Shown piece by piece: positions 34,812 through 64,000 of a DNA stretch of 64,000 bases (position 1 is the first letter of the stretch; each line of letters begins with the position of its first letter). A program made the translations under genes and the position numbers. Below the pieces are notes generated by a model that did no database searches, was not told where the DNA came from, and saw only the letters and a program-made list of their open reading frames with translations. This DNA comes from Micromonospora tarensis (lineage in GTDB: Bacteria > Actinomycetota > Actinomycetes > Mycobacteriales > Micromonosporaceae), in assembly GCF_016803395.1 (NCBI RefSeq), contig NZ_JAEVHL010000004.1, positions 1 to 64,000 of the forward strand. Direction: 5' to 3'.

Positions 34812-37571
34812 TCAGCGTCGGCGCGGGTCGGGCGCTGGCAACGCCCGCCGATCGACCTTGCCGTTCGACGTCAACGGAAGCGCGTCCAGGAACACGACCT
34901 GCGCGGGGACCATGTGTCGCGGCAGCTTGCCGGCCAGGTGCTCGCGGACGTCCCGCTCGGTCAGGTCGGCCTCGGTCACCACGTACGCCACCAGGCGTTT
35001 ACCGCTCTGCGCGGCGCCCTGGGCGACGACGACGGCGGCACCCACCCCGTCGTGGGCGAGCAACGCCGCCTCGATCTCGCCGAGTTCGATCCGATGCCCA
35101 TGGATCTTGACCTGGTAGTCGCTGCGACCGAGGAACTCAAGCGTCCCGTCCGGCAGGTATCGGGCCAGGTCACCCAGGCGGTACAGGCGCTCGCCGGTGC
35201 CCGGGTGCGAGATGAACGCCGCCCGGGTCGTCTGCTCGTCCCGCCAGTACCCCATCGCCACGCCGACTCCGCCGACGTGGAGGTCACCGGCCACCCAGTC
35301 CGGACGCCGCCGCAGCCCAGCATCCAACACCTCGAACCACTGGTTCGACAGGGGCCTGCCGTACGGGATGCTGGGTTGCGAAGGGTCGACCTCCCGGATG
35401 ACGTGGTGGATCGACCAGATCGACGCCTCTGTCGCGCCGCCGAGGCTGACCAGTTCGATCCCCGGCCCCGCCAGCGCGCGGATGCGGTCCGGCAGGGTGA
35501 CCGGAATCCAGTCGCCGCTCAGCATCGCCAGTCGCAACGACGGCGGGAGCTGCGCTCGGCTGGCCACCGCGTATCCGACGAGCATCTCCATCAGCGCGGG
35601 CACCGTGTTCCAGAGCGTGACGTCGTGGCGCTGGAGCAGCTCCGCCCAGTGCCACGGTGCCCGGCTGGTGCCGGGGTCGGGCATCACCAGGGCGCCACCG
35701 GCGGCGAGCGGACCGAAGATGTCGTAGACCGACAGATCGAAGCTCAGCGGCGTCAGGGCCAGCACCCGATCGGTGGGACCGACCTGGAACCGCTCGTTGA
35801 TGTCCAGCACGGTGTTCACCGCACCGCGGTGGTCGATCATCACTCCCTTGGGCTGCCCGGTCGAGCCCGACGTGTAGATCACGTACGCCAGATCGGTGAT
35901 CTGTTGCGCCCGCCGGGACACCGACGCGACCTCGCCGACCAGCATCGCTGCGTCGACAGTGACCACCTGGACGGCCGGGGGCCAGGGCAGGCTGCCGGCG
36001 AGCCCGGCGTCGGTGACGGCGATCGCCGTGTCGGCGTGTCGCAGCAGGTGGTGGAGACGCTCCTGCGGCAGATCCGGATCCACCGGCACGTAGGCGGCAC
36101 CGGACTCGAGGATGCCCAGCGCCGCGACGATCTGCTCCCACCCCTTGTCCAGGACGATGGCCACCAGCTCGTTCGGCCGGACACCCAGGTCGCGCAACCG
36201 GTCCGCCAGAACCGTCGCGGCCGTGGCCAGCTCGCGGTAGCTCACAGTGCGGTCGCTTGTGATCACCGCCGGTCGGTCGGGCCCGACCCGCGCCTGTTCC
36301 CAGAACATCTGGTGCAGCAGTTGCCCGTCGACCGGCTTCGCGGTGTCGTTGACCCGACGTCGGACCGCCTCCTGCCGCGCGGGCAGGCGGACCTCGACGC
36401 CGACCTCCGCAACATCGATCGCGTCTGCCCCGTCGACCGCGACCGCCCCGGCGAGTTGGGTGAGCACGTCGACGAAGCTCGCCATCATGTCCTCGGCGAG
36501 ATCCGGCACGAGTACCGCGTCGACGGTGTCCCAGGTTATCGCCAGCTCTCCGTCCTCGTCCGCGATGTCACAGCCGAGTAGCAGCCCGGGGGCGACCCGG
36601 CACTCGTAGCCGACCACACCGCCGCCCAAAGTCCAGCCGGACAGGCCGGAGCGGGTCACCCCGTCCCCCACCCGACAACTGAACTGCACACCCAGGGTGT
36701 CGGGCGGGTCACCGTCGGCCACCTCATCACCCGCGTGCCCCCGGGCGGCGTCGCCGCGCAGCCGACGGTTCAGCTCCCCCAGCCGGGCCCCGAACGACGT
36801 GGTCGGATCGGCGTCGAGCAGCAGCGCCGCGGCACGCCGGCCGTCGCCCGGCCCGGCCCCCTCGATCAGGTTCACCGCGAAGCTCGGCGGCGTGCACCAC
36901 AGACCCAGCACCTCTGCGAACACCTGGGCGAACAGCGCCCGGGGCGACACGCCCAGCCGCGACGCCTGAGCCAGCAGCGCGTCCGACAGCCCGCCGGCAA
37001 TCCGGTGCCGGCGCCGTACGGCCACCGGGCGCGCCGGGAACGGGGGTCGGGCGAGGGGCAGTTGGGGGCCGGAGCCAACTGGGTCCGGCCCTGGCCGGTG
37101 CGGCCGGCGCGGCTCCGGCACGCCGGGCGGCGTGATCCCGCCCGGTGCCCCGTCACATGTCCCGGTCAGGTACAGACGTCGCAGCTCCTGACCGAGGCGC
37201 TCGGTGCGGTCGGCGTCGATCGTCCGGTCGTCGACGACGATGTGGATCCGGGCGAGCCGGCCCGCCATCATCGTGACCCGCGCCTCGATCGCGGCACCCG
37301 GCCCCGGGTACGTCTGCTCGCCGAGCAGCTCCTCGCGGACCTGGGCCAGCCGCCGATCCCGCTCGACCTCGGTCTCCTGCCGAACGTCGAGCACGACCGG
37401 GCCGGGCTCGGTGGTGTCCGTGGCCGGCCCCGCCGAACCGGCGGCGGCGGACACGACAGCAGGCGACAGGGCGTGCCGGCTCGCCAACCGCCGCCACGCC
37501 ACCGCGAAGGCGTCGACGTCGAGGTCCCGGATGTCCACTTCGAAGTAGGTGCGGGCGACAGCGGCGGACAT
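34812..37571 (-). CDS. Degenerate Cy-like domain fused to a cysteine-type A domain, no PCP
   Basis: The product is 919 aa. Residues 400-910 are an A domain with YTSGSTGQPKGV, SFDLSVYDIFG, WNTVPALM, LAMLSGDWIPV and LGGATEASIWS, giving by eye D,L,Y,N,M,S,L,I,W,K, which is one residue away from the known cysteine code. Residues 8-385 resemble a heterocyclization domain, but the first about 25 residues (the PLTDxQxAYW region) are absent, the Cy5-like SQTPQ is replaced by CRVAPG, and a low-complexity Pro/Arg segment lies at about 150-190. VDDRTIDAD keeps a D-x4-D. The domain is probably not a full Cy catalyst. There is no carrier, so cysteine must be loaded in trans. Confidence 0.82.
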   Translation of the reverse strand: MSAAVARTYFEVDIRDLDVDAFAVAWRRLASRHALSPAVVSAAAGSAGPATDTTEPGPVVLDVRQETEVERDRRLAQVREELLGEQTYPGPGAAIEARVTMMAGRLARIHIVVDDRTIDADRTERLGQELRRLYLTGTCDGAPGGITPPGVPEPRRPHRPGPDPVGSGPQLPLARPPFPARPVAVRRRHRIAGGLSDALLAQASRLGVSPRALFAQVFAEVLGLWCTPPSFAVNLIEGAGPGDGRRAAALLLDADPTTSFGARLGELNRRLRGDAARGHAGDEVADGDPPDTLGVQFSCRVGDGVTRSGLSGWTLGGGVVGYECRVAPGLLLGCDIADEDGELAITWDTVDAVLVPDLAEDMMASFVDVLTQLAGAVAVDGADAIDVAEVGVEVRLPARQEAVRRRVNDTAKPVDGQLLHQMFWEQARVGPDRPAVITSDRTVSYRELATAATVLADRLRDLGVRPNELVAIVLDKGWEQIVAALGILESGAAYVPVDPDLPQERLHHLLRHADTAIAVTDAGLAGSLPWPPAVQVVTVDAAMLVGEVASVSRRAQQITDLAYVIYTSGSTGQPKGVMIDHRGAVNTVLDINERFQVGPTDRVLALTPLSFDLSVYDIFGPLAAGGALVMPDPGTSRAPWHWAELLQRHDVTLWNTVPALMEMLVGYAVASRAQLPPSLRLAMLSGDWIPVTLPDRIRALAGPGIELVSLGGATEASIWSIHHVIREVDPSQPSIPYGRPLSNQWFEVLDAGLRRRPDWVAGDLHVGGVGVAMGYWRDEQTTRAAFISHPGTGERLYRLGDLARYLPDGTLEFLGRSDYQVKIHGHRIELGEIEAALLAHDGVGAAVVVAQGAAQSGKRLVAYVVTEADLTERDVREHLAGKLPRHMVPAQVVFLDALPLTSNGKVDRRALPAPDPRRR

Positions 37572-49303: not shown

Positions 49304-49462
49304 AGAGGCAATGTAGGCAGTGTGCGGCCCCGTTGAGGACACACCGCCGTGCGCACCTTGGCGCGCTACATCGTCCACACCGAGAGGGCTTGGCCGAACC
49401 GCAGGCGTTCGCGACATTTGTTCTCACTGCGGTTTCCGGATCAGACGAACGGGGCGAGCGTC

Positions 49463-50350
49463 ATGGCATTGCGGAACGAGCCGGGGGCCGTGGCGCCGGC
49501 CACTGACGTCATCGTGCTCCCCGGGGCCAGGTCGGCCCAGGGGATAGCCAGCGGAGCCGGTGACACCTTCTACTGCGGTGATCTGTTCCTCGGCCACATC
49601 TACCGGGGAGATCTTCGGCGCCGTACCGCCGAGTTGTTCATCGAGGTCCCGGCCGGGCGGCTGTCGATGGGGATGTGGGCCGATCTTCGGCACGGGTTGC
49701 TGTTCGTCGGCGGCGCTCTGGGGTGGGCGTACGTCTACGACCTGGATACCGGTGCGACGGTTGCCACCTACCAGCTCGGTACCGTGGGCGATCTGGCCAC
49801 CACGGTCGTCAACAAGGTCTTCGTCGCCGAGCGGGGTGCCTATTTCAGCGACTCCTCCAGCGCCGTCATCTATTTCGTGCCGATCGGCCCGGCCGGCGAG
49901 CTCGGACCGGCCAGCACGATCCCGGTGACCGGACCGGCGGCGGAGATCACTGGCGAGTTCAACCTGAACGGGATCATCGCGGCCGAGGCCGGAGAGCCGT
50001 TGATCATGTCGCACACGTCGAACGGCCGGCTCTACACCGTCGACCCGGCGACCGGTGCCAGCCGGCTGATCGAAGGCGTCGATGTGCCCGTGGCTGATGG
50101 CCTGGTGCTGGAGGGCAACCACCTGTGGGTGGTGCAGAACCGGATCCACCAGGTGTCCCGGGTGCGGCTGAGCCCCGACCTGTCCAGTGGGGTGGTCGAG
50201 GCGGTCATCACCCACGACGCCTTCCAGTTCCCGGCGACCGCCGCCCTCTTCGACGACTGCCTGGCGGTGCTCAACGCGAAGTCGGACACGGCGGAGACCG
50301 GAGACCCGCCGACGGCCGACGAGTACGAGGTCGTCATCGTCGAACGCTGA
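49463..50350 (+). CDS. SMP-30/gluconolactonase-like beta-propeller protein
   Basis: The product is about 295 aa. It consists of repeated four-stranded blades: DTFYCGDLFLGHIYRGDLRR, WADLRHGLLFVGGALGWAYVYDLDTGATV, EITGEFNLNGIIAAEAGEPLIMSHTSNGRLYTVDPATGASRLI, VLEGNHLWVVQNRIHQVSRV. The calcium-ligand Asn in FNLNGI and the Glu start suggest the SMP-30 fold. No signal peptide. It may be a lactonase or a non-enzymatic binding protein. It stands alone between the two blocks and its link to them is uncertain. Confidence 0.75.
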   Translation: MALRNEPGAVAPATDVIVLPGARSAQGIASGAGDTFYCGDLFLGHIYRGDLRRRTAELFIEVPAGRLSMGMWADLRHGLLFVGGALGWAYVYDLDTGATVATYQLGTVGDLATTVVNKVFVAERGAYFSDSSSAVIYFVPIGPAGELGPASTIPVTGPAAEITGEFNLNGIIAAEAGEPLIMSHTSNGRLYTVDPATGASRLIEGVDVPVADGLVLEGNHLWVVQNRIHQVSRVRLSPDLSSGVVEAVITHDAFQFPATAALFDDCLAVLNAKSDTAETGDPPTADEYEVVIVER

Positions 50351-50360
50351 GCGGTGCGGC

Positions 50361-50591
50361 TCAGCCGTGGTCGCGTCGCCGTTCGATCAGTCGGTCGATG
50401 TCGCGGACGGTGCCGGCGTCCTGGAGTTCGTCCTCGCTGATCTCCAGCCCGAACCGGTCGAGGAGGATCACGGACAGCTCCACGAGCGTGATCGAGTCGA
50501 AACCCGCGTCCTCGAGGCTGAGCTCGGGGTGCACGGCGGCCTCCTCCAGCCCCAGATCGTCGAGCAGGATGCTTCTAAGCTCCTCGTTCAC
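50361..50591 (-). CDS. Discrete acyl carrier protein paired with the FAAL
   Basis: The product is 76 aa, acidic, with the phosphopantetheine Ser in EDAGFDSITLVEL. Its ATG at 50591 lies inside the end of the FAAL gene (17-base overlap), so it is translationally coupled to it. In ramoplanin and enduracidin type clusters the FAAL loads a fatty acid onto a free ACP that is then acted on by acyl-CoA dehydrogenases; the same four genes are adjacent here. Confidence 0.9.
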   Translation of the reverse strand: MNEELRSILLDDLGLEEAAVHPELSLEDAGFDSITLVELSVILLDRFGLEISEDELQDAGTVRDIDRLIERRRDHG

Positions 50592-52286
50592 GGCGGCGTC
50601 CTTCCACGAGATCGGATTCGTCGTCGACGACGATCAGTGCGCCGCTGTGGTACCGGTCCCGACAGGTGCGGCGCTGGAGTTTTCCGCTCGTCGTCTTGGG
50701 CATGGTGCCGCGGCGCAGGAAGACGACGTCGTGCACGTGGATGTCGTGCTGTGCCGCGACGACGCGGCGCACCGCGGCGCGCAGTCCGCGGAGGTCAGTG
50801 GCCGCCTCCGGCCGGATCTCGGCGACGACGACGACCCGCTCCCGCTCGTCGACGTTGACACCGAACGCGACGACGTTGCCGGTCCGGACGGCGGGCACCT
50901 GTTCCTCGACTGTCAACTCAATGTCGCTCGGGTGGTGGTTACGGCCGTCGATGATGATGAGGTCCTTGAGCCGGCCGGCGACGAACAGGCAATTCCCGTG
51001 GAAGAAGCCGAGATCGCCGGTACGCAGCCAGCCGTCCTCGCCGTCGAGGGCGGCACCGAAGACCTCCGGCCGGTCGTCCGACCAGTAGCCGGCACAGACG
51101 TTGGCGCCGCGTACCCAGATCTCGCCGACGTCCTCCGGCCCCGCGGGCAGTCCGGTCGCCAGATCCACGATCCGTACCTCCTGGTCGACGGGGAGCCCGC
51201 AGCCCACCATGGCGACCCCGCGCGGGTCGCGTCCCCGATCCGCCGGACCCGCCCGGCGTGGAGGTCGGCACGGTCGAACGAGCGGACCGGGGGCTCCTGG
51301 TCGAGAGGAACGGTGGTCACCACGAACGTCGCCTCCGCGAGGCCGTAGACAGGGGTGTGGGCGGCGGGTCGGAATCCGTACGGTGCGAAGGCTTCGGTGA
51401 AGCGGGCCAGCGAGCGGGCCCGCACGGGCTCGGCGCCGTTGCCGGCGTAGACCAGCGGGGACAGGTCCAGTCCGGCGCGCTGCGCCGCGGGGACCCGGTC
51501 GACGCACATGTCGAAGCCGAAGTTGGGGCAGAGCATGTGGGTGGCGCGCCGGTCGCTGAGCAGCCGCAGCCAGCGCAGCGGCTCCCGGACGAAGGCCAGC
51601 GGGCTCATGTGCAGCACCGGAACCCCGGTCGCCAGCGGCAGGATCACCCCGAACACCAGGCCCAGGTCGTGGAAGAGCGGGCTCCAGCTCACGATCGTGG
51701 AGTGCTCGTCGAAGCGGAGACTGGTGCGGCTCTGACCCACCACCGCGGCCATGTTCCGGTGGGTGACCCGGACGCCCGCGGGGTGCCGTGTGGAGCCGGA
51801 GGTGTACTGGAGATACGCGGTCTCCGCCGGCTCGCACGGGGCCGGGGTCCACTGGATCGACGGGTCGGGCTCGATGTCGTCGGGGTGGATGATCCGTACC
51901 GTGGTCTCGTGGAACGACCGCGGTGCGAGCGCCACCGCGCACCCGCAGTCGTCCATGGCCAGCGCTATCCGGTCGTTGTGGCGATAGGGGCCGGGCGCGG
52001 ACAGCGGTACCGCGATCACCCCGGCGTAGAGGCAGGCGACGAAGCCGACGACGAAGTCCACGCCGGTCGGGCAGAGGATCGCGGCCCGGTCACCGGGCCG
52101 GGCGACCTGCCGCAGGCGCTCGCCGACGGCGCGGACCCGCGCGTCCAACTCCCCGTAGGTCAGGTTCCGGGCTCGTCCCCACGGCTCGGTCGAGTAGTCG
52201 ACGAACGTCATCGCCACCTGCTCGGGATGCGACTCGGCGCGCTGCCGGACGGCCGTGGTCCAGGCGGTCTCCGACCGGACCCTCAC
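50575..52286 (-). CDS. Fatty acyl-AMP ligase (FAAL), interrupted by an apparent frameshift
   Basis: The N-terminal frame (GTG 52286) has LQYTSGSTRHPAGVRVTHRN, the FAAL form of the ATP loop, WSPLFHDLGLVFGV and PVYGLAEATFVV, ending near 51230 at RRIGDATRAG. The other frame continues DPRGVAMVGCGLPVDQEV, WVRGANVCAGYW, WLRTGDLGFFHGNCLFVAGRLKDLIIIDGRNHHPSDIE and KTTSGKLQRR with the catalytic Lys. Joined length is about 570 aa, normal for FAAL. One base is missing at about 51226-51236. FAALs form acyl-AMP and pass it to an ACP, not to CoA. The start overlaps the ACAD stop (GTGA). Confidence 0.87.
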
Positions 52287-53464
52287 CGCTTGCTCCCTCC
52301 GGCGCCGCGGCGGCGTCCCGTCTCGAACATCTGGCTGGCGATGGTACGCAGCAGGATGTTCGACGTGCCCTCGTAGATCTGGCCGATCACGGCGTCCCGA
52401 TAGAACTTCTCGACCGGGTACGCGGTGCTGAAGCCGTTGCCGCCGAAGGTCTGTACGGCCTGCGACGCCGCCCGGGTGGCCACCTGGGAGGCCAGATACT
52501 TCGCCATGGCGCAGCGCGACAGCAGTTCGGGCGCGTGACCGCCCCGGTCGGCGAGCCGGGCCACGTCGTACACGAGCAGCCGCGCCGCTTCGATCTCGGT
52601 GGCCACCTGGGCGAGCGGAAGCTGCACGCCCTGGAAGGTGGCGATGGGTTGGCCGAACTGTTCGCGCTCCTCGGCGTACGCCACGGCCGCGTCGAGGGCG
52701 CCGGTGGCCAGGCCCACCATCTGCGCGCCGATACCGATCCGGCCGATGTTGAGGGTGTCGATGGCGATGTCGTAGCCGTCGCCCTCCTCCCCCAGCCGGT
52801 GGTCCCGGGGAACGCGTACGCCGTCGAAGTGCAGTTCACAGGTCGAGCTCGCCCTGATCCCCAGCTTCTCCTCGTTCGGTCCGACGACCAGCCCTGGTGT
52901 GTCACTCGGCACCAGGAAGGCCGTTATGCCGTAGACGCCGTGCTCGGGGGCGGCGTTGGCGAAGACGACGAAGAGGCCGGCCTCGCGGGCGTTGGTGGTC
53001 CAGATCTTCCGCCCTTCCAGCACGTAGTCTGTGCCGTCGCGGCGGGCCCGCGACCGCAGCGCGAACGCGTCGCTGCCGGATTCCGGTTCGGTCAGCGCGT
53101 AGCCGCCGACGACGTCACGGGCCAGCCGGGGCAGGTGGCGCTCCTGCTGGGCGGAGCTGCCCCACCTGATGAGGGCGGTGTTGACGAGCACGTTCTGTAC
53201 GTCGACGCAGACCGCCACCGCGGGATCGACCCGGGCGAGCTCGGCGATGGTCAGGGCGCTCATGAAGGTTGAGCCGCCGCCGCCGCCGAAGCGGTCCGGG
53301 ATCTGGATGCCCATCAGGCCCAGTGCGAAGAGTTCGTCGATCAGCTCGCGGGGCATCCGGGCCTCACGGTCCATCCGCTCCACCTGCGGCCGCAGTCGCT
53401 CGTCCGCCCATTTGCGGACGGTGCCGCGCAGTGCTTCCTCTTCGTCCAAGAACAAGGTTTCCAT
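52283..53464 (-). CDS. Acyl-CoA dehydrogenase-family flavoprotein 1
   Basis: The product is about 393 aa from ATG 53464. FAD and substrate motifs: YALTEPESGSDAFALRSRA, GRKIWTTNAREAGLFVVFA, EEKLGIRASSTCELHFDGVRVP, FGGNGFSTAYPVEKFYRDAVIGQIYEGTSNILLRTIA with the catalytic-base Glu in YEGTSN. The start is decided by family alignment; the open frame extends to 54127 but there only mirrors the next gene. In FAAL/ACP/ACAD cassettes these enzymes introduce double bonds into the ACP-bound fatty acid. Confidence 0.9.
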   Translation of the reverse strand: METLFLDEEEALRGTVRKWADERLRPQVERMDREARMPRELIDELFALGLMGIQIPDRFGGGGGSTFMSALTIAELARVDPAVAVCVDVQNVLVNTALIRWGSSAQQERHLPRLARDVVGGYALTEPESGSDAFALRSRARRDGTDYVLEGRKIWTTNAREAGLFVVFANAAPEHGVYGITAFLVPSDTPGLVVGPNEEKLGIRASSTCELHFDGVRVPRDHRLGEEGDGYDIAIDTLNIGRIGIGAQMVGLATGALDAAVAYAEEREQFGQPIATFQGVQLPLAQVATEIEAARLLVYDVARLADRGGHAPELLSRCAMAKYLASQVATRAASQAVQTFGGNGFSTAYPVEKFYRDAVIGQIYEGTSNILLRTIASQMFETGRRRGAGGSKR

Positions 53465-53475
53465 GACAGCGCCCC

Positions 53476-54615
53476 CTATTGGAATGCGGCGAGCCCCAGC
53501 ACGGACCGGGCCACCACCAGCTTGTGTATCTCGGTCGTCCCCTCCGCGATCGTCAGCGCCCGGGCGTCGCGGAAGTAGCGTTCGAGCGGGTAGTCCGGCG
53601 ACAGTCCGTTGGCGCCGTGGATCTGGATCGCCTCCGACGTGACCCGCACCGCCATCTCGGTGGCGTACGCCTTGGCCATCGACGCCTCCCGGTCGGACCG
53701 GTGACCCTGCTGCACCGAGGTCAGCGCGCGGTGGATGAGCAGGCGGGAGGCGTCGATCTCGGCGGACATGTGGAAGATCTTGTCCTGGATGAGCTGGAAC
53801 TCCCCGATCCGTCGGCCGAACTGGCGGCGTCGTCGGGCGTAGGACACCGAGGCCTCCAGCGCAGCGCGGGCGATCCCGAGCGAGACGACGGCAATCCGGC
53901 AACGCGCCCACTGCATCGTCCGGAAGATGAGTTGCAGGTTTCCCGGGGAGCCGGCCGGGCCGATGCAGTTCTCCCGTGGCACGCGGCAGTCCTCGAAGAC
54001 CATCTCCGAGGTCACGAACGCGGTGAGCCCGAGTTTGGGCAGGTCCCTGGTTCGGTAGGGCGACCGGGCGCGTTCGACGATGATCGGCCTGATCTCCTCC
54101 GATCCGTCCGCGCCGGCGACCCGGCACAGCACGATCGCGTAGTCGGAGATGTCGGCGTTGGAGATCCAGCGTTTCTGCCCGTTGATGACGTAGTCGTCGC
54201 CGTCGGGGACCGCCCGGGTCTCCAGCGCCGCGTTGTTCGAGCCGTGGTCGGGCTCGGTGGAAGCCAGGCAGCCGATGCCCTCGCCGCGCAGCAGCGCCGG
54301 CACGGCCCGGTCCCGCAGCTCGGCCGGGCCCGCCGCGGCGATGTACCGGGCGCAGGCGTACGAGATCATCAGGCAGCCCTCGAGCGAGGGGAACACCCGG
54401 GCCAGTTCCTCACTGGCCAGCGCCGCCGCCACCTCGTCCTGGGTGTCCTCCATCGGATAGCCGTGCCCGCGCAGCGTCTTGACGATTTCCGGCAGCCGGT
54501 CCAGTGGCAGCCGGTCGTCGCCGTGGCGGTCGCCGAGCGGCCGGATGTCCTCCTCCAGGCCCGCGCGCAACGAGGCCAGCTGGTCGTCCGACATCGACGC
54601 GTGCCCGTCACCCAT
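53476..54615 (-). CDS. Acyl-CoA dehydrogenase-family flavoprotein 2
   Basis: The product is 379 aa. Motifs: GCLASTEPDHGSNNAALETRA, GQKRWISNADISDYAIVLC, LPKLGLTAFVTSEMVFEDCRVP, IQIHGANGLSPDYPLERYFRDARALTIAEGTTEIHKLVVAR with the base Glu in AEGTTE. Its divergence from the neighbouring ACAD suggests two different desaturation steps rather than duplication. It lies 11 bases above the other ACAD gene in the block D operon, as with the ACAD pairs next to FAALs in lipopeptide clusters. Confidence 0.9.
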   Translation of the reverse strand: MGDGHASMSDDQLASLRAGLEEDIRPLGDRHGDDRLPLDRLPEIVKTLRGHGYPMEDTQDEVAAALASEELARVFPSLEGCLMISYACARYIAAAGPAELRDRAVPALLRGEGIGCLASTEPDHGSNNAALETRAVPDGDDYVINGQKRWISNADISDYAIVLCRVAGADGSEEIRPIIVERARSPYRTRDLPKLGLTAFVTSEMVFEDCRVPRENCIGPAGSPGNLQLIFRTMQWARCRIAVVSLGIARAALEASVSYARRRRQFGRRIGEFQLIQDKIFHMSAEIDASRLLIHRALTSVQQGHRSDREASMAKAYATEMAVRVTSEAIQIHGANGLSPDYPLERYFRDARALTIAEGTTEIHKLVVARSVLGLAAFQ

Positions 54616-54632
54616 GATGGCGACCCCTTCTC

Positions 54633-55433
54633 TCAGAGTGTCCCGTCGTCGTCTCGGAGCGCCCCCTCCAGGCGCTTGAGTTCGGCGGACACGGCTTCGG
54701 CGAACAGGCCCGGCGACGAGTCGAGGAAGAAGTGGCCACCGGGCAGGGTGGTGGCCGAGAACTCAGCCGTCGTCTGCTCGCCCCAGGCCTCCAGCGCGGG
54801 TAACGGCACCGTCCAGTCCTCGCTGCCGCCGAAGGCCGCGATCGGGCAGTCGAGTGGGCTGCCCCGCTCGTGTGCGTAGGTCTCGTCCAGGCCCAGATCC
54901 GCCCGGAGGACGGGGAGCATCACATCGACCAGTTCCTCGTCGTCGAGCAGGTCGTTGTGCCGGCCGGCCAGCCGGTGCAGCCCGTCGACCAGCTCGGCCC
55001 GGGACAGCTCGTGCAGCGGGGTCCGCTCCGACCGCAGGTGCGGAGCCCGGGCCGCGGCGGCGAACAGAGCCGTCGGCCCGGGCCATCCCCGCCGGGCGAA
55101 CTCGCGCCCGGTCTCGAAGCCGATCAACGCGCCCACGCTGTAGCCGAGCAGGACGAACGGTCGGGGAACCCGCTCGGCGATGACGTCGGTGAGCTGGTCG
55201 ACGAGCGGCTCCAGGCGGGTCATCGGTGTCTCCCCGAGCCGGCGGCCATGCCCGGGCAGCTCGATGGCGCACACCTCGACGTCGCCGGGGAGATCCGCCG
55301 CCAGCCGCCGGAAGACCGACGCCCTCCCGCCGGAATAGGGCAGGCAGACCAGTCGCAGGCCGGCATCCGGTTTCGGACGTGGGTACTGGATCCAGCGCTG
55401 GCGATGCGGATTCCGTTCCGGTGTCTCCGGCAT
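54633..55433 (-). CDS. Type II thioesterase
   Basis: The product is 266 aa. VCLPYSGGRASVFRRLA, nucleophile Ser in LLGYSVGALIGFE, AAARAPHLRSERTPLHEL, Asp in GGSEDWTVPLPALEAW, His in PGGHFFLDS. This is the classical editing thioesterase of NRPS/PKS systems, removing stalled acyl groups from carriers. It follows the NRPS gene by 6 bases in the block D operon. Confidence 0.92.
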   Translation of the reverse strand: MPETPERNPHRQRWIQYPRPKPDAGLRLVCLPYSGGRASVFRRLAADLPGDVEVCAIELPGHGRRLGETPMTRLEPLVDQLTDVIAERVPRPFVLLGYSVGALIGFETGREFARRGWPGPTALFAAAARAPHLRSERTPLHELSRAELVDGLHRLAGRHNDLLDDEELVDVMLPVLRADLGLDETYAHERGSPLDCPIAAFGGSEDWTVPLPALEAWGEQTTAEFSATTLPGGHFFLDSSPGLFAEAVSAELKRLEGALRDDDGTL

Positions 55434-55439
55434 GGGACC

Positions 55440-58400
55440 CTATGCCTCGCCGAACTGCTCGACGAAGCGGGCAAGGGCCTCCTCGGGGATCAGCACCCCG
55501 TCGCACTGCGGAGGGCCGCCCACGTAGCCGTTGCTGCGCAGGACCTCCAGGTGGCGCTGGGCCCGCTGCGGGTCGGACGGTCCGGTCACCGGCCCGATGC
55601 CCTCCTGGGCGACGAGTACGTTGGACAACACCGAGCTGGTGATCTGGGTGATGCTGTAGGCGTCCGGCGTGTTGGCGGCGAACCACTCCACGCCCTCCTC
55701 GCCGGCCAGGTCGTACATGAGCGGCGGCCAACCGAAGATCTTCCGCATCGGGGTGGCGCACTCGATCACGTCGCCCTGGCCGAACAGCAGGTCCGCCTTC
55801 TCCTGGATCCGGGCCATCGCCACGTCCCGGTCGTAGCAGGGCGGGATCGAGTCGTCGACCAGCATGGTGCCGGGCCTGAGCTTGCCGATGTCGACGATGT
55901 CGGGGGCGTTGGTGTCCGCGCTGATCACGGTCGCCTCGTAGAACTTGTCCGGCAGCGACGAGGTGCCGCCGATGATCTCGATCTCGCCCTGGTAGCCGAG
56001 CACGTCGCGTACCTCGTCGGCGGCCTTGCGGAGCCGGCTCGGGATCCCGGCCGCGGGGCCGCGGGGGCTGTCCCCCGTCGCGGCGTACGGGTCGCAGAGG
56101 ACGAGCTTGCGGGGGTGCGGCAGGGTGCTCAGCAGCAGGTGCATGGACGCCTTACCCACCGAGCCGACGCCGAGGATGCCCAGCACCTCGTTCTCCATGC
56201 TGCGCCCGGTCATCTGCAGCATCCGCTCCACGTTGAGCACGACGGCAGCGGAGGTGGTGTCGTGGCCGCTGGTGACCGGCGGAAGGTCCTGGCGGCCCTC
56301 GACGGCCTCGGCGACCCCGCGAGCGTAGTTGGTCGCCGTCACCAGCAGTCCGCTCAGCGAGATGTTCTTCGCGCCGAGCCGGGTGCCCATCTCGACCCCA
56401 CTCATGATCGTCTCGACCAGTCGCTCCTGGTTGAGGTACAGCTCGGCGGTGTCGAGGCGCGGGATCATGATCGTGGCGATGCGGCCCAGGTTGGTGTCGA
56501 TGATGCCGCACAGGTGCGGGGCGTCCAGCTCCATCAGCCGGTGCGCGACGTCGCCGGGCTCGATGCCCGCCCGTTCGAACAGGCCCGCCGGCGTGGCCAG
56601 CACGCCGGCGCCGTCCACCTGCGGGATCTTGCCGGTCACGTAGAGCGTCAGCAGGTCGCGCCGCTCGGTGGTGACGCTGCCCTCGATGACCTCGGCGGCC
56701 TTCTCACCCTCGTCGGTCTGCTCGTCCTGGCCCGTGTCGTCGCCCTTGGTGAGCGCGGCCGACAGGTCGGCGATCGTGGGGTGGGCGAACAGGTACCGGA
56801 CCCCGAGCTGCTTGCCGACCGTGCCGGAGATCTTCGACACGAGGTTCACCGCCTGCAGCGAGTCGTCGCTGAGGTCGAAGAAGTTGTCGTGGACGCCCAC
56901 CCGGTCGAGTCCGAGCACGTCGCACCAGTGCTGACTCAGCTGCTCCTCCAGCGGAGTGCGGGGCGCGACGGCCCGCGGGCGGCGTCGAGCTCGGGAATGT
57001 TCGACTCGGCCAGGGCCTTGCGGTCGATCTTGCCGTTCGCGGTGAGCGGCAGGTCGTCGCGCAGGATCACCGTCTTGGGAACCATGTACTCGGGCAGCTT
57101 GTCCCGGATGAAGGTCCGCAGTTCGCCCGTCTCCGGCCGCTTGTCGCCGGCCGTGACCACGTACGCCACCAGGCGCTTGCTGTCGCTGTGGTCGTCCACG
57201 GCCAGCACGACCGCTTCGCGTACCGCCTCGTGCTCGTGGATGACGCTCTCGATCTCGCCGAGTTCGATCCGGTAGCCGCCGATTTTCACTTGGAAGTCCT
57301 CCCTACCGAGAATTTCGATGCTGCCGTCGGGAAGTCGCCGTCCGATGTCCCCGGTGCGGTACAGGCGCTCGCCGGTCCCTGGGTGGGTGATGAAGGCGGC
57401 GTCCGTCGCCTCCTTGTCGTGCCAGTAGCCGTCGGCCACGCCGGTGCCGCCGATGTAGAGGTCGCCCGGGACCCAGATCGGACGTACGTCGAGATCCCGG
57501 TCGAAGACGTGGACCTGCTGGTTGGCCAGCGGCTTGCCGTACGGGATGCTGGTCCAGGCCGGGTCCACGGCACCGATCTCGTACCCGATCGACCAGATCG
57601 AGGCCTCGGTCGCGCCGCCGAGGCTGATCACCTTCACGTCGGGCACCAGCCGGCGCAGCCGGTCCGGCAGGGTGACCGGGATCCAGTCCCCGCTGAGCAG
57701 CGCCAGCCGGAGCGAGCCGGGGATGTCCAGCCCGACGTTCTCGGCGTACTGGACCAGCAGGCTCATGAAGCCGGGGACGGAGTTCCAGACCGTGACGCGT
57801 CCCTGCCGCATCATGTCGAGCCAGTGCGCCGGGTCGCGCAGCCCGGAGTCGTCGGGCAGTACGAGCCGCGCGCCGGCGGCGAGCGTGCCGAACACGTCGT
57901 AGACCGAGAGGTCGAAGCCGAGCGAGGAGAGGCCGAACACGGCGTCGTCCGGGCCGACCTGGAACCGCTGGTTGATATCGGTGATCGTGTTGAGGGCGCT
58001 CCGGTGGGAGATCATCACGCCCTTCGGCACGCCAGTGGAGCCCGAGGTGTAGATGACGTACGCCAGGTCCTCCGGGCGTTGGACGGGTGCGAGGGGCGCT
58101 TCGGAAACCTCCTTCAGCAGCCGGGTGTCCACGGCCAGGCGGCGGATGTCGTCGGGCCAGTCGAGGCGCCGGTCGACGCCCTCCTGGGTGAGCACGATCC
58201 GCACGCCGGCGGCCCTGAGGATGCGGTGCAGCCGCTCGCGTGGCAGCGAGGCGTCCAGTGGCAGGTACGCCGCCCCGGACTTGAGCACCCCGAGCACCGC
58301 GGGTAGCTGCGCCCAGCCCTTGTCCATCACGACGGCTACCAGGGTGTTGGGACGTGCACCCTGGTCGCGTAGCCAGCGGGCGAGGCGGGTGGCGTGCCGG

Positions 58401-60079
58401 TCGAGTTCCCGGTAGGTGATCGTCCTGGCCGTCGACACGAGGGCCGGCTCGTCCGGCCGCTCGGCCGCCTGCGCCTCGAACGGCTCGTGCAGCAGTCCGG
58501 CGGGCACCGGCGTGGCGGTGTCGTTCGCCTCGGCCTGCAACGCCCGGTGCGCCACGGGCACGATGTGCCGTCGGCCGCGCTCCTCCCAGCCGCCCGGTTC
58601 CTCGGCGAGCCGGCGTACGTGCCGCACGAAGGCGTCAAGCATGTCCTCGGCGAGACCGGGTGGGAAGACCGAGTCCAGGACGTCCCAGGTGAACTCGAGT
58701 CCGCCCTGCCGCACGGCGCTGCGTACCTCCAGGTAGACCTGGGGGGTCTGGCTGACGCTGTAACCGAGTTCGCCGAGCCCCGACATGTCGACGCTGCTCA
58801 TCTCGACGCTGTTGAACACGACGTAGGTGTTGCGGCGCGGGGCACCGCCGTACGCCTTCGCCAGTTCGCGCATCACCTGGACCCCGCTGACGTAGCGGCA
58901 GTGCTGGAGGTCCTCGATGAGCTGCGCCTGGAGACGCCGGGCGCGTTCGAGGAAGGTGGCCCCGCCCGACGGGAGGACGCGCAGGTGGTTCGGCAGGGCG
59001 AAGCTGCCGATGATCGAGTTGACGTCGTCATGTACCGGCAGCCGGTCCCAGAACGGCGCGTTGATGCTGAATTCCTCGGTCTTGCTCCACAGCGCGGCAA
59101 CGTCGCAGAACGCGGTCAGCAGCGCGGCGCCGGGCATCAGGCCGGCCTCCTGCACCCGCGCCTTGAACCGGTTCCACGGCTCCGGTTCCAGGATCCGGGC
59201 GGTCAACGCCTTCGACACCGGTGCTCCGGTGCGGGCCACCTGGATGGGCAGCTCGGGCGGTGGGGGAAGCGTCGGCAGTCGCCGTCGCCAGTAGTCGAGG
59301 GCCCGCTCATAGATGGGCGACCCCGTCAACGCCGCCTTGGCCACCACGTAGTCGCGGGTGCTCAGCTCGATCGGCGGAAGTTCCTCGCCCACGTTGAGCT
59401 GTGAGAGTTCCCGCAGGATCTGCATCAGGCTCAGCGAGTCCGAGACCAGCAGGCTGAAGCCGTAGTGCAGTCGCGTGCGGTCGTCGTCCAACAGGGTCGC
59501 CCGGATCCGGAACAGCGGCCACTGGTCCCGGACGAACATCTCGCCCGGCATCTCGCGGCGGAACGTCTCGAGCCGTTCGGTCACCTCGGCGGCCGGTCGG
59601 CCGCGCAGGTCGAGCACCTCTATGTCGTATTCGGGTACCTCCGGCAGGATCTGGTTCTGCCCGTCGGGAAGCACGATGGCGCGCAGCATCGCGTGCCGGC
59701 GGATCAGGTGCCGCCAGGACTCGGTGAAGTGGTCCAGGTCGAGTCCGACGGTGTCGATCTCGATGTAGCCGTTGCCGGCCAGGTTGCCGATCTCGAACGC
59801 GTCGCGTCCACCGGCCCAGATGGCCTGCTGCATGTCGGTGAGCGGAAACGGTTCGTACAGCTTCTCCGGCGCCGGGACGATCTTCGGGATGGCCGTCGGG
59901 CGGTCCGCGGCGCGCTCCCGGACCAGGGTGAGCAGTTCGGCCTTGTTCTCCTTGAGCGCGGCGCGCAGTTCGTCGGTGAGGGCGTTCCTGGGGGCGCGGA
60001 CGCGGAGTTCGTCCCCGTCGGCCCAGAGCATCACGCCTCGCCGGGAGAGATCCGCGGCCAGTTCCTGCACGGTTCCCAT
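55440..60079 (-). CDS. NRPS: TubC docking-Cy-A(Cys)-PCP-reductase, split by an apparent frameshift
   Basis: Frame 1 (60079 to 56936) has a TubC-type docking domain (1-60, RRGVMLWADGDELRVRAP), a Cy domain (about 75-500; FPLTDMQQAIWAGG, SQTPQVYLEV; the Asp motif reads SLLVSDSLS), and an A domain (about 520-1030) with pocket D,L,Y,N,L,S,L,I,W,K, the cysteine code. It runs out in a nonsense tail. The next frame supplies TPLEEQLSQHWCDVLGLDRV and the PCP (FFDLSDDSLQAVNL), then a reductase of about 390 residues (LGILGVGSVGKASMHLLLS) resembling cyanobacterial long-chain acyl-ACP reductase. A base missing in the G run at 56960-56963 joins them into about 1545 aa. Confidence 0.85.
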
Positions 60080-60100
60080 CGCATACTCCTCCAGCTGATG

Positions 60101-63100
60101 TCAGAGAATTTCGAACTCTTCCCAGGCCGCTATGTCTGAGCCCGCGTCGGTCGGTGGCGCGGCACCGGCCGTGGTGCCCGCTTCGGCGTCGGCCAGCATT
60201 CGCTCGGCGAGTTGCCGCACGCTGGCGCCCTCGAGGGCGGCGGTCAGCGGCAGCGTGAGACCAAGCTCCACCTCGACCCGGCTCTTCATCCCGACCGCGA
60301 CCAGGGAATCCAGGCCGACCTCGGTGAGCGGCTGGTCGATGTCGAGCTGCTCGGGTTTCATCTCCAACGCCCGCGCGACCGCACCGTGCAGGTAGGACTC
60401 CAGCAGCTCGCGCCGATGCGCCGGGTCGGCGGCGAACAGCTCGTCGACGGTGAGGGGGCCGCGGGCGGCCTCGACGACGGCTGGTTCCGGTGCGGCGGCG
60501 GCCACCAGCTCGGAGATCAGCGGAGCCGGGGGCGCTGCCGCCGCCCAGCGCTGCCAGTCGACGAGCGCCGCGGCGACCTGCGGCGCGTCGACGCCGAGCA
60601 GCGGGCCCAGCCAGCTGATGCCGCTGGCCGGCGCGATGCCGCTCACCCCGGCGCGCTCGACGAACCGGCCGACGCCATCGGGCGTCACGGAGAGCCCGGT
60701 GTTCTCCCACGCGCCCCAGGCGATGCTCAGCGCCGGGCGGCCCTGCCCGCTCCGCAGCGCGGCGAGTGCGTCCAGGAAGGTGTTGGCCGCCGCATAGTTT
60801 CCCTGCCCCGGCGAGCCGACCAGCCCGGCGAGCGAGGAGAACAGCACGAAGAAGTCCAAGGCCAGGTCGGCCGTTGCGGTGTGCAGGTTCCACGACCCGG
60901 CGACCTTGGGTTCGAGGACGGTCAGCAGGCGCTGCGGATCGAGGGTGCGGAGGGTGGCATCGTCGAGGACACCGGCCGCGTGCACGACCCCCCGGAGCGG
61001 CGGCATCGATGTCGCCGCGTCGGTGAGGACCCGGGTGAGCGCCGACTCGTCGCTGACGTCGGCCCGCGCCACCCGGACCTCGACGCCCGCGTCGCGCAGC
61101 GTCCGCACCACCCGCCCGGCGTCGTCGCCAGGATCCCGGCGGCCGATCAGCAGGAGATGCCGTGCGCCGTGGTCCACCAGCCAGCGCGCCGTGAGCAGGC
61201 CCAGCGCACCGAGCCCGCCGGTGACGAGGTAGGTGCCGTCCGGGCGGACGGCCTCGGCGGGTACGGCCCGTGGCGCCGTCCGGCGGACCAGCCGCGCCAC
61301 GTGCCGGGTGTCGCCCCGGAGCGCGACCTGGGTCTCCGGGTCGTCCGCCCGCACCTCGTCAGCGATCCACCGCGCGACCGCCGGGTCCGGGGCGGGACCG
61401 AGGTCCACCAGGGTCGGCCGCAGCTCGGGGTGTTCGACGGCGGCGACCCGGCCGAGTCCCCAGACCGGCGCGTGGCGCACCGACGTGGCGGGCGCCGATC
61501 CGTCGATGCCGTGCACGCCGGCGGTCAGCAGCCACAGGCGCGCGTCCTCGCCCGCCGGTGCGCCCTCGGTCAGGGCCTGGATCAGGAGCAGCACGGTGAC
61601 GACGCCCCGCTGTTGCGCGGCGCGCAGCGGGTCCGGGTCGTCTCCCGTCGCCTCGTCAAGGCTCCACAGCTGGACCACACCCCGCAGCGCGCCCACCCGC
61701 CCGCGCGCCGCGTCGACCGCCCGGCGGATGTCGTCGCCGTGCCCGGGGCGGACCACGATCTGGTCGGGGTCAGAGTCGTCGAAGCCGGCGCCGGCGGTCA
61801 CCCGCACGGTCCGGTGCCCGTCCTCGCGGAGCCGGGTGGCCAGCGCGGCACCGACGCCGCGGTCGTCGACGAAGATCAGCCAGCCGCCGGTGCGCTGGGA
61901 CCGGCCGGCCGCGGCGCGGTCGCGGGGTTGCCAGCGCACCTGGTAGAGCGCCCGGTCGAGGGCGAGCGGCGCGGGCAGCCAGGCGTCGTTGTCGAGTCGT
62001 CTGATGTGGACGCCCTCGAGTACGGCGACTGTCGTTCCGGCGTCGTCGGTCAGTCGGATGTCTCCGACCACGCTGGCGTCGTGCTGCGTACGGATGCGGG
62101 CGTGGGCCCAGAGGCGGTCCTGATGACCGGTCCCGAGCGGTCGGGCGACCATGCGGTCGACCGCCAGCGGCACGTAGGGGCGCCGGTCGTCGGTCTCGAC
62201 GTCGAGGGCGGCGATCAGGGTGTGCAGGGCGGCGTCGAGGAACACCGGGTGGATGCCGTAGTCGCCCGTCTCGGCCGCCATCTCCGCCGGTGGGACGAGG
62301 GCGGCGAGGGCCTCCCGCTCACCCCGGGTCAGCTGGTCGACCGCCTGGAACGCCGGGCCGTACTCGAGCCCCCGCGCCCGCAGGATCCGGTAGAGGTCGG
62401 CCGGTTCGACCGGGTCCGGGCAGCGGGTGCGGGCGGCGGCCAGGTCCAGCGCCGGCAGGTCGGCCCCGTCCGACGCGCCGGCCGCGGCAGTGCCGGTGAG
62501 GTGCTGGGTCCACTCGGCGTCGTCCGCCGTCCGGGCGTACGCCCGGACGGTGGCGACGCCGTCCTCGGTGGCGGTCATCCGCAGCTGGACCGTGGCCGTG
62601 CCGGTGTCGTCGAGTGCGAGCATGCGGGGGAACTCGACAGCGGTGAGCACTGTGGACGTGGTGCCGAACAGCTGCGCGGCGGCCGCCCGGGTCATCTCGA
62701 GCCAGGCGGCACCGGGTAGCACGGCGACGCCCTGGACCCGGTGGTCGTCGAGGACGGTCTGGCCGGCCACGGTGAGGGTGCTGTCCCAGACGTGGCTGCC
62801 GGCTTCGCCGGCGAGCTGCAGGCGGGCACCGAGCAGCGGGTTGCCGCCGGCCTGACCGGACGGCCTCGGCTGGGTTGCCGTGGCGGGCAGCCAACAACGT
62901 TCACGCTGCCAGGGATAGCTGGGCAGCGGTACCGGCGGGCGGGCTTCGGGATGCAGCGCGGTCCAGGCCGGCTCGTAGCCGACGGCGTACAGGGCGGCGA
63001 GCGAGGTCAGCAGGACCTCCCGCGGTGGTTCGTCGCGACGCAACGACGGCACGAGCCTCAGCTGCCCCACACGGCTCTGCGCGTTCTGCGCGATCGCGGG

Positions 63101-64000
63101 CAGCAGGCCCGGGTGCGGCGACAGCTCGACGAACACGTCGTGGCTGTCGTCGAGGAGTCCGTCGACGGCCGCCGCGAAGAGCACCGGGTTGCGGATGTTC
63201 TCGGCCCAGTACCGGCCGTCGAGGGCGTCGGCGTCGACCGGGTGGCCGGTGACCGTGGAGTACATCGGCAGGTTCGGCGCGGACGGTCGCAGCTCGGTGA
63301 GGTGGCCGGCGAGCTCATCCACCAGGGGTTCCATCTGCGGGCTGTGCGAGGCGAAGTCGACCGACTGCAGGATCCGGACGAAGGTTCCGGCCCGCTGCAA
63401 CCGGGCCGTGACCTCCTCGACGGCGTCGGCGTCCCCGGAGATCACCGTCGAGGTGGGCGCGTTGACCGCCGCCACCGAGACGCGGTCGTCCAGGCCGTTG
63501 AGCTCGGCGCGGACGGCCTCGGCGGGCAGTTCGACGACGGCCATCCGGCCGCGGCCGGCGACCGTGCGGACGACCTGGCCGCGCCGGCAGATGACGCGGA
63601 CGGCGTCGGGCAGGCTGAGTACGCCGGCCAGGTGTGCCGCCGCCACCTCCCCCATGCTGTGGCCGACCACGGCGTCCGGCACGATGCCTCGGGACCTCCA
63701 CAGGTTGGCCAGCGCGACCTGGACGGCGAACAGGGCGGGTTGGCAGAAGTCGGCCTCGTCGAGGCGGCTCGTGTGCTCGTCGGCCCAGAGCTGGTCGAGC
63801 AGCGACCAGCCGGCCTCGGCCCGGATCAGGCGATCGCATTCGGTCAGGGTCGCCAGCAGCGCCGGCTCGTCGCGCAGCGTCGGGTCCAGTGGCCACCAGA
63901 CCGGGCCCTGTCCCGGGCAGACGAAGGCGACCCGGTGGTGACGGCGGCGGGCCGCGTCGCCGGAGACCATGCCAGGGCTGGGATCGCCGGCCAGGAAGGC
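60101..64000 (-). CDS. Type I PKS module, C-terminal part: AT-DH-KR-ACP (KS outside window)
   Basis: The frame is open to base 64000, so the KS lies beyond the edge. AT (about 10-320 from the Met at 63970): FVCPGQGPVWW, GHSMGEVAAAH, and VDFASHS, closer to the YASH of methylmalonyl-type than the HAFH of malonyl-type ATs. DH: HRVQGVAVLPG and DAALH. KR: TYLVTGGLGALG, VLDD (B-type sign), SSLAGLVGSPGQGNYAAAN. ACP: EVGLDSLVAVGM. No ER was seen. The product would be an alkene. The acidic tail SDIAAWEEFEIL fits a docking motif for the TubC domain of the NRPS that starts 21 bases later. Confidence 0.92.
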   Translation of the reverse strand, partial: AFLAGDPSPGMVSGDAARRRHHRVAFVCPGQGPVWWPLDPTLRDEPALLATLTECDRLIRAEAGWSLLDQLWADEHTSRLDEADFCQPALFAVQVALANLWRSRGIVPDAVVGHSMGEVAAAHLAGVLSLPDAVRVICRRGQVVRTVAGRGRMAVVELPAEAVRAELNGLDDRVSVAAVNAPTSTVISGDADAVEEVTARLQRAGTFVRILQSVDFASHSPQMEPLVDELAGHLTELRPSAPNLPMYSTVTGHPVDADALDGRYWAENIRNPVLFAAAVDGLLDDSHDVFVELSPHPGLLPAIAQNAQSRVGQLRLVPSLRRDEPPREVLLTSLAALYAVGYEPAWTALHPEARPPVPLPSYPWQRERCWLPATATQPRPSGQAGGNPLLGARLQLAGEAGSHVWDSTLTVAGQTVLDDHRVQGVAVLPGAAWLEMTRAAAAQLFGTTSTVLTAVEFPRMLALDDTGTATVQLRMTATEDGVATVRAYARTADDAEWTQHLTGTAAAGASDGADLPALDLAAARTRCPDPVEPADLYRILRARGLEYGPAFQAVDQLTRGEREALAALVPPAEMAAETGDYGIHPVFLDAALHTLIAALDVETDDRRPYVPLAVDRMVARPLGTGHQDRLWAHARIRTQHDASVVGDIRLTDDAGTTVAVLEGVHIRRLDNDAWLPAPLALDRALYQVRWQPRDRAAAGRSQRTGGWLIFVDDRGVGAALATRLREDGHRTVRVTAGAGFDDSDPDQIVVRPGHGDDIRRAVDAARGRVGALRGVVQLWSLDEATGDDPDPLRAAQQRGVVTVLLLIQALTEGAPAGEDARLWLLTAGVHGIDGSAPATSVRHAPVWGLGRVAAVEHPELRPTLVDLGPAPDPAVARWIADEVRADDPETQVALRGDTRHVARLVRRTAPRAVPAEAVRPDGTYLVTGGLGALGLLTARWLVDHGARHLLLIGRRDPGDDAGRVVRTLRDAGVEVRVARADVSDESALTRVLTDAATSMPPLRGVVHAAGVLDDATLRTLDPQRLLTVLEPKVAGSWNLHTATADLALDFFVLFSSLAGLVGSPGQGNYAAANTFLDALAALRSGQGRPALSIAWGAWENTGLSVTPDGVGRFVERAGVSGIAPASGISWLGPLLGVDAPQVAAALVDWQRWAAAAPPAPLISELVAAAAPEPAVVEAARGPLTVDELFAADPAHRRELLESYLHGAVARALEMKPEQLDIDQPLTEVGLDSLVAVGMKSRVEVELGLTLPLTAALEGASVRQLAERMLADAEAGTTAGAAPPTDAGSDIAAWEEFEIL

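Follow-up and report, generated by a model that had tools for sequence, protein, structure and literature searches.

Carmabin A, vatiamide E/F, and hectoramide B are reported to end in amides, and the terminal domains of VatR and HcaD are believed to be responsible, off-loading by terminal amidation (PMC10949194; this and the other articles are cited for the excerpts available). Acyl-acyl carrier protein reductase (AAR) takes its acyl chain onto C294, from which hydride then frees the aldehyde (PMC9594044). Here, we analyzed a 64,000-nucleotide stretch of Micromonospora tarensis DNA (NCBI RefSeq GCF_016803395.1, contig NZ_JAEVHL010000004.1, positions 1 to 64,000; hereafter, the window). It encodes a lipid-primed polyketide synthase (PKS)-nonribosomal peptide synthetase (NRPS) line whose cysteine module ends in a domain fused to the peptidyl carrier protein (PCP). 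By sequence comparison, this domain falls in the clade of the carmabin terminal amidation domain (TAD), within the AAR superfamily, with serine at the position of the catalytic cysteine. We tentatively propose that it releases a linear lipo-cysteine non-reductively.

In the open-license literature searched, no paper on a terminal amidation domain was found, only PtTamH was judged relevant among the matches listed for AAR-like NRPS or PKS ends, and nothing bore on this cluster's combination of genes. The orthologue family described below shares one scaffold of heterocyclization-type condensation (Cy), adenylation (A), and PCP domains, and it includes both a cysteine form (G1018) and a serine form (the window, G777, G778, G779, G310, and G1050). 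The two forms offer a natural comparison for asking how TADs release their chains and why NAD is bound beside the cysteine.

Kinship of the Terminal Domain

Annotation relied on Pfam and NCBIfam matches (E 0.01) together with comparison of orthologues. At this threshold, neither Pfam nor NCBIfam recognized the terminal domain (55443-56681, minus strand); the NCBIfam rows that touch it lie far below cut-off. PF07993 (NAD_binding_4) was likewise unmatched in 55443-56918, where only PP-binding matched. Identity as an SDR-type NRPS reductase was rejected for want of the PF07993 match, in agreement with the original prediction made from the sequence alone. A phmmer search of the Protein Data Bank aligned residues 82-491 of the 55440-56918 open reading frame (ORF) with 9e4s (E 1.5e-62) and 9e4x (E 1.7e-62), which Foldseek lists under the title "TAD from Carmabin Biosynthetic Pathway". 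Further carmabin TAD entries contain NAD (9e50), NADH (9e4u), or a Cys2238-dephosphocoenzyme A disulfide (9e56). With a 16-row profile, 9e4x scored 1.3e-81, PigE 3.9e-11, and AAR 2e-4. The likeness to AAR first noticed by eye is thus real at the superfamily level, while among solved structures the carmabin TAD is nearest.

Phylogeny pointed the same way. In a 38-row tree, for which the tool flags long branches around the AAR-like/PigE part, the window family grouped with carmabin and a Pantoea plasmid protein in one clade (100/98), and nine stand-alone AAR-like proteins with PigE were set apart (100/100). The domain also lies C-terminal to the PCP of the terminal NRPS module, the position expected of a TAD. 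Its Rossmann motif reads GVGSVG, and Asp197 after β2 suggests that NAD is preferred over NADP.

The structure prediction and fold search proposed with the original prediction did return carmabin TAD entries, albeit from a poor model. AlphaFold2 worked from four near-identical rows and reached a mean pLDDT of 44.9, so the fold match leans on sequence, and from searches with the model we took nothing beyond the titles of the entries and the residue numbering of the TAD chain. Foldseek also matched other Rossmann proteins (e.g., pyrroline-carboxylate reductase, SbnB, and mu-crystallin), which we did not take as an argument for imine reduction because those matches rest on the Rossmann part alone.

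Replacement of the Catalytic Cysteine

The catalytic-cysteine column of AARs and TADs is occupied by Ser350 in the window (codon 55632-55634). An L-INS-i alignment of 38 rows placed serine there in all six window-family rows (the window; L002, Actinomadura formosensis; L003, A. physcomitrii; L004, Saccharothrix carnea; G310; and G1050) and cysteine in the other 32. G1018, the seventh single-module line, retains cysteine (MTSCILSSLL; ITSSVLSSLL in G1050). In the tree, which kept the serine-bearing column and is therefore not independent of the serine label, the six serine rows grouped together (100/100) with G1018 as their sister (100/99). A single Cys-to-Ser change would be the simplest history of the serine clade.

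On the TAD side, the column corresponds to Cys2238, the cysteine of NIMGC, as numbered through two VIA rows (model 137 = 2042, model 111 = 2016). The carmabin TAD structure paper reportedly describes the cysteine near NAD as invariant. On the AAR side, the column is represented by the nine stand-alone AAR-like ORFs and PigE, SeAAR itself not being among the rows. Besides duplicates, the 38 rows leave out stand-alone ORFs L029, L033, L037, L038, L039, and L040 (position unchecked), megasynthase rows L052 and L055-L058, in which the cysteine is visible, and the weak hit L014/L020, malic-enzyme-like by eye.

The register varies with the method: phmmer sets Ile opposite the TAD cysteine, a separate alignment (A2) sets Thr, and L-INS-i sets Ser. 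None of the three puts cysteine at the window position. We adopted Ser owing to the larger L-INS-i alignments and the sister sequences of G1018 and G1050. A second cysteine (PPC, domain residue 282) occurs in the carmabin TAD as well; five megasynthase rows have Ala there, which makes it less likely to be the common nucleophile. Because the catalytic cysteine is missing, we do not class the domain as a canonical TAD and call it a serine variant among TAD-type domains.

A Degenerate Cy Domain

The Cy domain (58565-59857) is related by phmmer to those of EpoB (E 1.2e-77), BmdB (5.7e-61), and Irp2. In all seven lines, the first Asp of the DxxxxDxxS motif is replaced by Ser (SxxxxDxxS), and the cyclodehydration dyad has Asn for Thr and Glu for Asp; GDFT reads GSFA, or GSFT in G1018. 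We located the dyad by the 30-residue spacing of T1196-D1226 in BmdB, which fits one Thr/Asp pair aligning in EpoB and Irp2. Dyad mutations severely affect cyclodehydration (PMC9547227). With the first Asp and both dyad residues replaced in 7/7 lines, the thiazoline cap that had been expected is doubtful, and condensation without cyclization is predicted as the likelier outcome. Oxidation or reduction of a thiazoline by the terminal domain was also considered and dropped, given a lack of evidence and the doubt over cyclization itself.

Proposed Off-Loading and Alternatives

In the proposed sequence, a starter primed onto the ACP by the fatty acyl-AMP ligase (FAAL) would be desaturated by the acyl-CoA dehydrogenase-like proteins (ACADs) and extended once by the PKS. 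The chain would then be joined to cysteine on the PCP, with the degenerate Cy domain only condensing, to yield a linear N- or S-acyl-cysteinyl-PCP. As the sole domain at the releasing position of the NRPS, the TAD-clade domain would act on the PCP-bound thioester and free an amide or related end, either via an oxyester or by direct attack; NAD(H) would be retained in a structural role or to take part in a redox-neutral step. Release is proposed to be non-reductive because the acyl-accepting cysteine of AAR is serine here, and an oxyester accepts hydride less readily; the amide-like end is suggested by membership in the TAD clade. Non-reductive off-loading of a linear lipo-cysteine by a presumably NAD(H)-binding, TAD-clade domain of a FAAL-primed PKS-NRPS line is the explanation we favor, tentatively, at somewhat short of an even chance.

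Several points weigh against it. The mechanism of terminal amidation was itself unstudied as of the excerpted text of PMC10949194, and TAD function is unproven. Other residues substitute for the dyad Thr in PchE (PMC8807600), and the Asp-to-Glu change is conservative, so this Cy domain may yet cyclize. The conserved Rossmann motif would also fit a cysteine-free reductase, and the placement of Ser350 in an active site depends on alignment, the model having a pLDDT of 44.9. A discrete thioesterase, present in all seven lines, is a potential releasing enzyme. Finally, no ammonia-supplying gene was recognized, although no search was aimed at one.

Were the domain instead an AAR-like reductase working without cysteine, NAD(P)H would deliver hydride directly to the PCP thioester to give an acyl-cysteinal or a thiazoline aldehyde, a route close to the original prediction. 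SDR-type reductase domains use such direct hydride transfer. Superfamily membership, the intact GVGSVG, and the terminal position speak for this route, as does the AAR-type domain of PtTamH, which draws acyl chains from a carrier protein in a coupled cascade that yields amines (PMC9594044). We nonetheless consider it unlikely, since transfer to C294 precedes hydride attack in AAR (PMC9594044), the residue is serine in 6/6 family rows, and the closest relatives are TADs rather than AARs. The aldehyde release by an AAR-type reductase put forward in the original prediction is left unsupported by the same kinship and the same loss of cysteine.

We assign a similarly low probability to a line in which the PCP-bound cysteine mainly serves as a sulfur donor or cleavable cap. 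The Cy domain would make S- or N-acyl-cysteine, and a SufS-type cysteine desulfurase, a P450, an FAD monooxygenase, and a thioredoxin reductase (TrxR)/methyltransferase fusion would act next, leaving a thiocarboxylic, thiolactone, disulfide, or S-methyl end. Clearing or releasing the PCP would then be left to the TAD-clade domain. There are precedents: Cys-PCP is the proposed sulfur donor of the thiotetronates (PMC5518548), and in photoxenobactin lines, where Cy is proposed to be inefficient, carboxamide, thiocarboxylic, and dithioperoxoate ends are attributed to proposed C-N/C-S cleavage (PMC9396620). Moreover, all five window-type genomes have SufS and the TrxR/methyltransferase fusion no more than ~20 kb from the terminal domain, at 80-85% and 73-77%, respectively, in the four other than the window. 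The window genome has an additional SufS (57%) elsewhere. By contrast, neither G1050 nor G1018 has a close copy of these sulfur genes; the best SufS is 45% in both, the best TrxR is 59% and 56%, and all of these matches lie outside the line neighborhood. Because G1050 has the serine without close copies, serine does not require the sulfur genes.

It is less probable still that the terminal domain is a non-catalytic or regulatory relic and that the discrete thioesterase hydrolyzes acyl-cysteine from the PCP. The catalytic cysteine is indeed lost, and the thioesterase homologue adjoins the NRPS gene in 7/7 lines. However, dN/dS (NG86) of the terminal domain is 0.144 for L002/L003, 0.233 for the window versus L002, and 0.252 versus L003, compared with 0.276 for the A domain of L002/L003 (435 codons). 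The domain is thus under purifying selection and does not resemble a decaying relic, and its Rossmann and adjoining motifs are conserved. Least probable is that the Cys-to-Ser switch made a new off-loading catalyst on the linear lipo-cysteine, coupled to a dedicated desulfurase, the product of which would be a sulfur-ended lipid (thiocarboxylate, thiolactone, or disulfide) and not an aldehyde, amide, or thiazoline.

The orthologue family also carries a caution for annotation: reading a product from domain order, with Cy taken as thiazoline and an AAR-like domain as aldehyde, may mispredict it here.

The Assembly Line and Its Gene Cluster

All genes of the line within 50361-64000 lie on the minus strand, in the transcription order PKS, NRPS, thioesterase, ACADs, FAAL, ACP. 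The set first read from the sequence (FAAL, ACP, two ACADs, PKS, and docking-Cy-A-PCP with a fused terminal domain) was confirmed by Pfam, NCBIfam, and the orthologues, and the motifs quoted at the time are present. The PKS module spans 60101-64000 in the window, where it reads AT-DH-KR-ACP as described. It appeared to lack a KS because the window stops at 64000; the whole gene (60101-65563 of the contig) is KS-AT-DH-KR-ACP, with KS, AT, DH, and KR motifs that appear intact. The AT motif is FASH, which we take to resemble the methylmalonyl type.

The NRPS begins with a TubC-type N-terminal docking domain (59918-60079; PF18563, E 4.2e-16), which shares the frame 56936-60079 with the Condensation-family and AMP-binding domains. 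The A domain (56972-58492) was identified by PF00501 (E 3.2e-87), phmmer, and the seven-line alignment. Its specificity positions, read by eye, are D-L-Y-N-L-S-L-I-W, presumably a cysteine signature. The PCP (56682-56957; PF00550, E 2.1e-9) is an in-frame segment from 56957 and shares the frame 55440-56957 with the terminal domain, the ORF as called being 55440-56918. Domain annotation of the NRPS gene gave no TE domain. A second NRPS piece at 34812-37571 (minus strand) is 41% identical to the Cy-A part and has the same by-eye cysteine code and an apparently eroded condensation domain; a comparable 43% piece lies ~20 kb from the G1018 line.

Downstream are the discrete type II-like thioesterase (54633-55433; PF00975, E 1e-39), ACAD1 (53476-54615; PF00441 and others; 84% to L002), and ACAD2 (52289-53452; PF02770, PF02771, and PF00441; 88% to L002). 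The FAAL (~50599-52286) was recognized by FAAL NCBIfam matches and occupies two frames in this assembly. The discrete ACP (50361-50591; PF00550, E 2.9e-12) has orthologues that are 61-63% identical in four lines. An unsaturated starter made by FAAL, ACP, and ACADs, followed by one PKS extension, is a plausible prediction. The FAALs of G1050 and G1018 are only 39-45% identical to that of L002. On the opposite strand, a conserved flanking ORF (49349-50350, plus strand) is SMP-30/lactonase-like by eye, gave no Pfam or NCBIfam match, and has a 68-77% orthologue near three of the four other window-type lines in the stretches examined.

The window lies on contig C4, which is 95,716 bases long and belongs to a 532-contig draft assembly. 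The NRPS in this draft is split over two frames, with the break between 56957 and 56978, and the FAAL is split near 51189-51228 (its tblastn pieces, 52286-51189 and 51228-50599, fall in different frames). Each is a single ORF in L002, L003, L004, and G310. Relative to L002, NRPS identity is 92% for L003, 84% for L004, and 82% for G310; the two pieces of the window NRPS are 84% and 81% identical to L002. At least three frame breaks fall in cluster genes that are intact in relatives (~51200, ~56960, and ~68219 of contig C4). They may reflect either sequencing error or a real lesion or decay.

The cluster extends past the window to ~79080 of the contig. This part encodes an ACP (65556-65798), KAS III, an AprA MT2-like protein, the TrxR/methyltransferase fusion, the FAD monooxygenase, the SufS-type desulfurase, an MFS transporter, and the P450. 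Besides the window, P450 orthologues lie near G777, G778, and G310, and none was present in the 21 kb examined of L004. The window genome and G777 carry both KAS III and the AprA-like protein, and G778 showed KAS III in part; neither was found in the 40 kb examined of G310. The AprA MT2-like methyltransferase (L015:8042-9655, ~67149-69697 of contig C4; PF23525, E 1.3e-67) lies beside KAS III, is 80-82% conserved in A. formosensis, and may build a branched starter.

Distribution of Related Domains

The genome searches covered Actinomycetota, with other phyla reached through a contig scan for close relatives (3 loci) and a plasmid collection (3 records). In the window's order, 11 of 397 genomes gave matches (the window, G310, eight megasynthases, and one weak unrelated hit). 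A phylum-wide draw yielded 18 of 396 (the window genome, three megasynthases, and fourteen short stand-alone ORFs), and the order of G778 yielded 14 of 345 (G777, G778, G1050, G1018, and ten megasynthases). Between the window and the two Actinomadura lines, dS of the terminal domain is only 0.37. Provided that the window genome is no close relative of Actinomadura, this value suggests that the cluster has spread horizontally.

The megasynthases with an AAR/TAD-like ending (L016:4285-16251, L021:4448-16057, L023-L025, L042, and L047-L058) measure ~3,500-4,600 residues and come from the window's genus and family, its class, and the order of G778. By Pfam and by eye, one reads FAAL-ACP-KS-AT-KR-ACP-C-A-PCP-C followed by an AAR-like domain with the cysteine kept, so that the domain sits after a C domain rather than a PCP. 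The stand-alone AAR-like ORFs (L026-L040; 362-436 residues) belong to small-genome (1.2-2.8 Mb) Actinomycetota, accounting for 14 of the 396 phylum-draw genomes, and have the cysteine in 9/9 aligned. A Pantoea stewartii plasmid (L041:13869-15158) encodes a free-standing TAD-clade protein (32.5%) with the cysteine kept, flanked by a KS protein with a MupA-type monooxygenase and by two NRPS genes.

Comparison with Known Systems

The carmabin TAD (9e4s, 9e4u, 9e4x, 9e50, and 9e56) shares its clade, a length of ~400 residues, and a like Rossmann motif with the window domain. The window family differs in having Ser for Cys2238, a preceding cysteine module whose Cy domain is degenerate, and an actinobacterial lipo-PKS setting. 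VatR (vatiamide) and HcaD (hectoramide), likened here by description alone, also carry the terminal domain after the PCP of the last module. Cyanobacterial AAR (6jzq and 6jzy) and the reductase domains of PtTamH and PigE have the superfamily, a glycine-rich nucleotide site, and a carrier-protein substrate in common with it, whereas profile similarity is weak (2e-4 for AAR, 3.9e-11 for PigE) and the window domain lacks the catalytic cysteine.

The cluster's sulfur genes suggest unusual chemistry. Thiotetronate clusters comprise a PKS, Cy, A(Cys)-PCP, and a P450, and they need a cysteine desulfurase encoded at a separate locus (PMC5518548). The window cluster resembles those of thiolactomycin and Tu 3010 in all of these components but has the desulfurase inside the cluster, a FAAL/ACP/ACAD starter, a TAD-clade domain, the TrxR/methyltransferase fusion, and a Cy domain without DxxxxDxxS. 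A dedicated thiouridylase-like sulfur transferase (TlmJ type) is a further mark of thiotetronate clusters. The photoxenobactin/piscibactin line (pxb) likewise has cysteine modules, a proposed inefficient Cy, and unusual off-loading; unlike the window NRPS, it has a TE, and the excerpted text of PMC9396620 mentions no TAD-clade domain. The thiotetronate and photoxenobactin pathways are the nearest precedents found for such sulfur chemistry.

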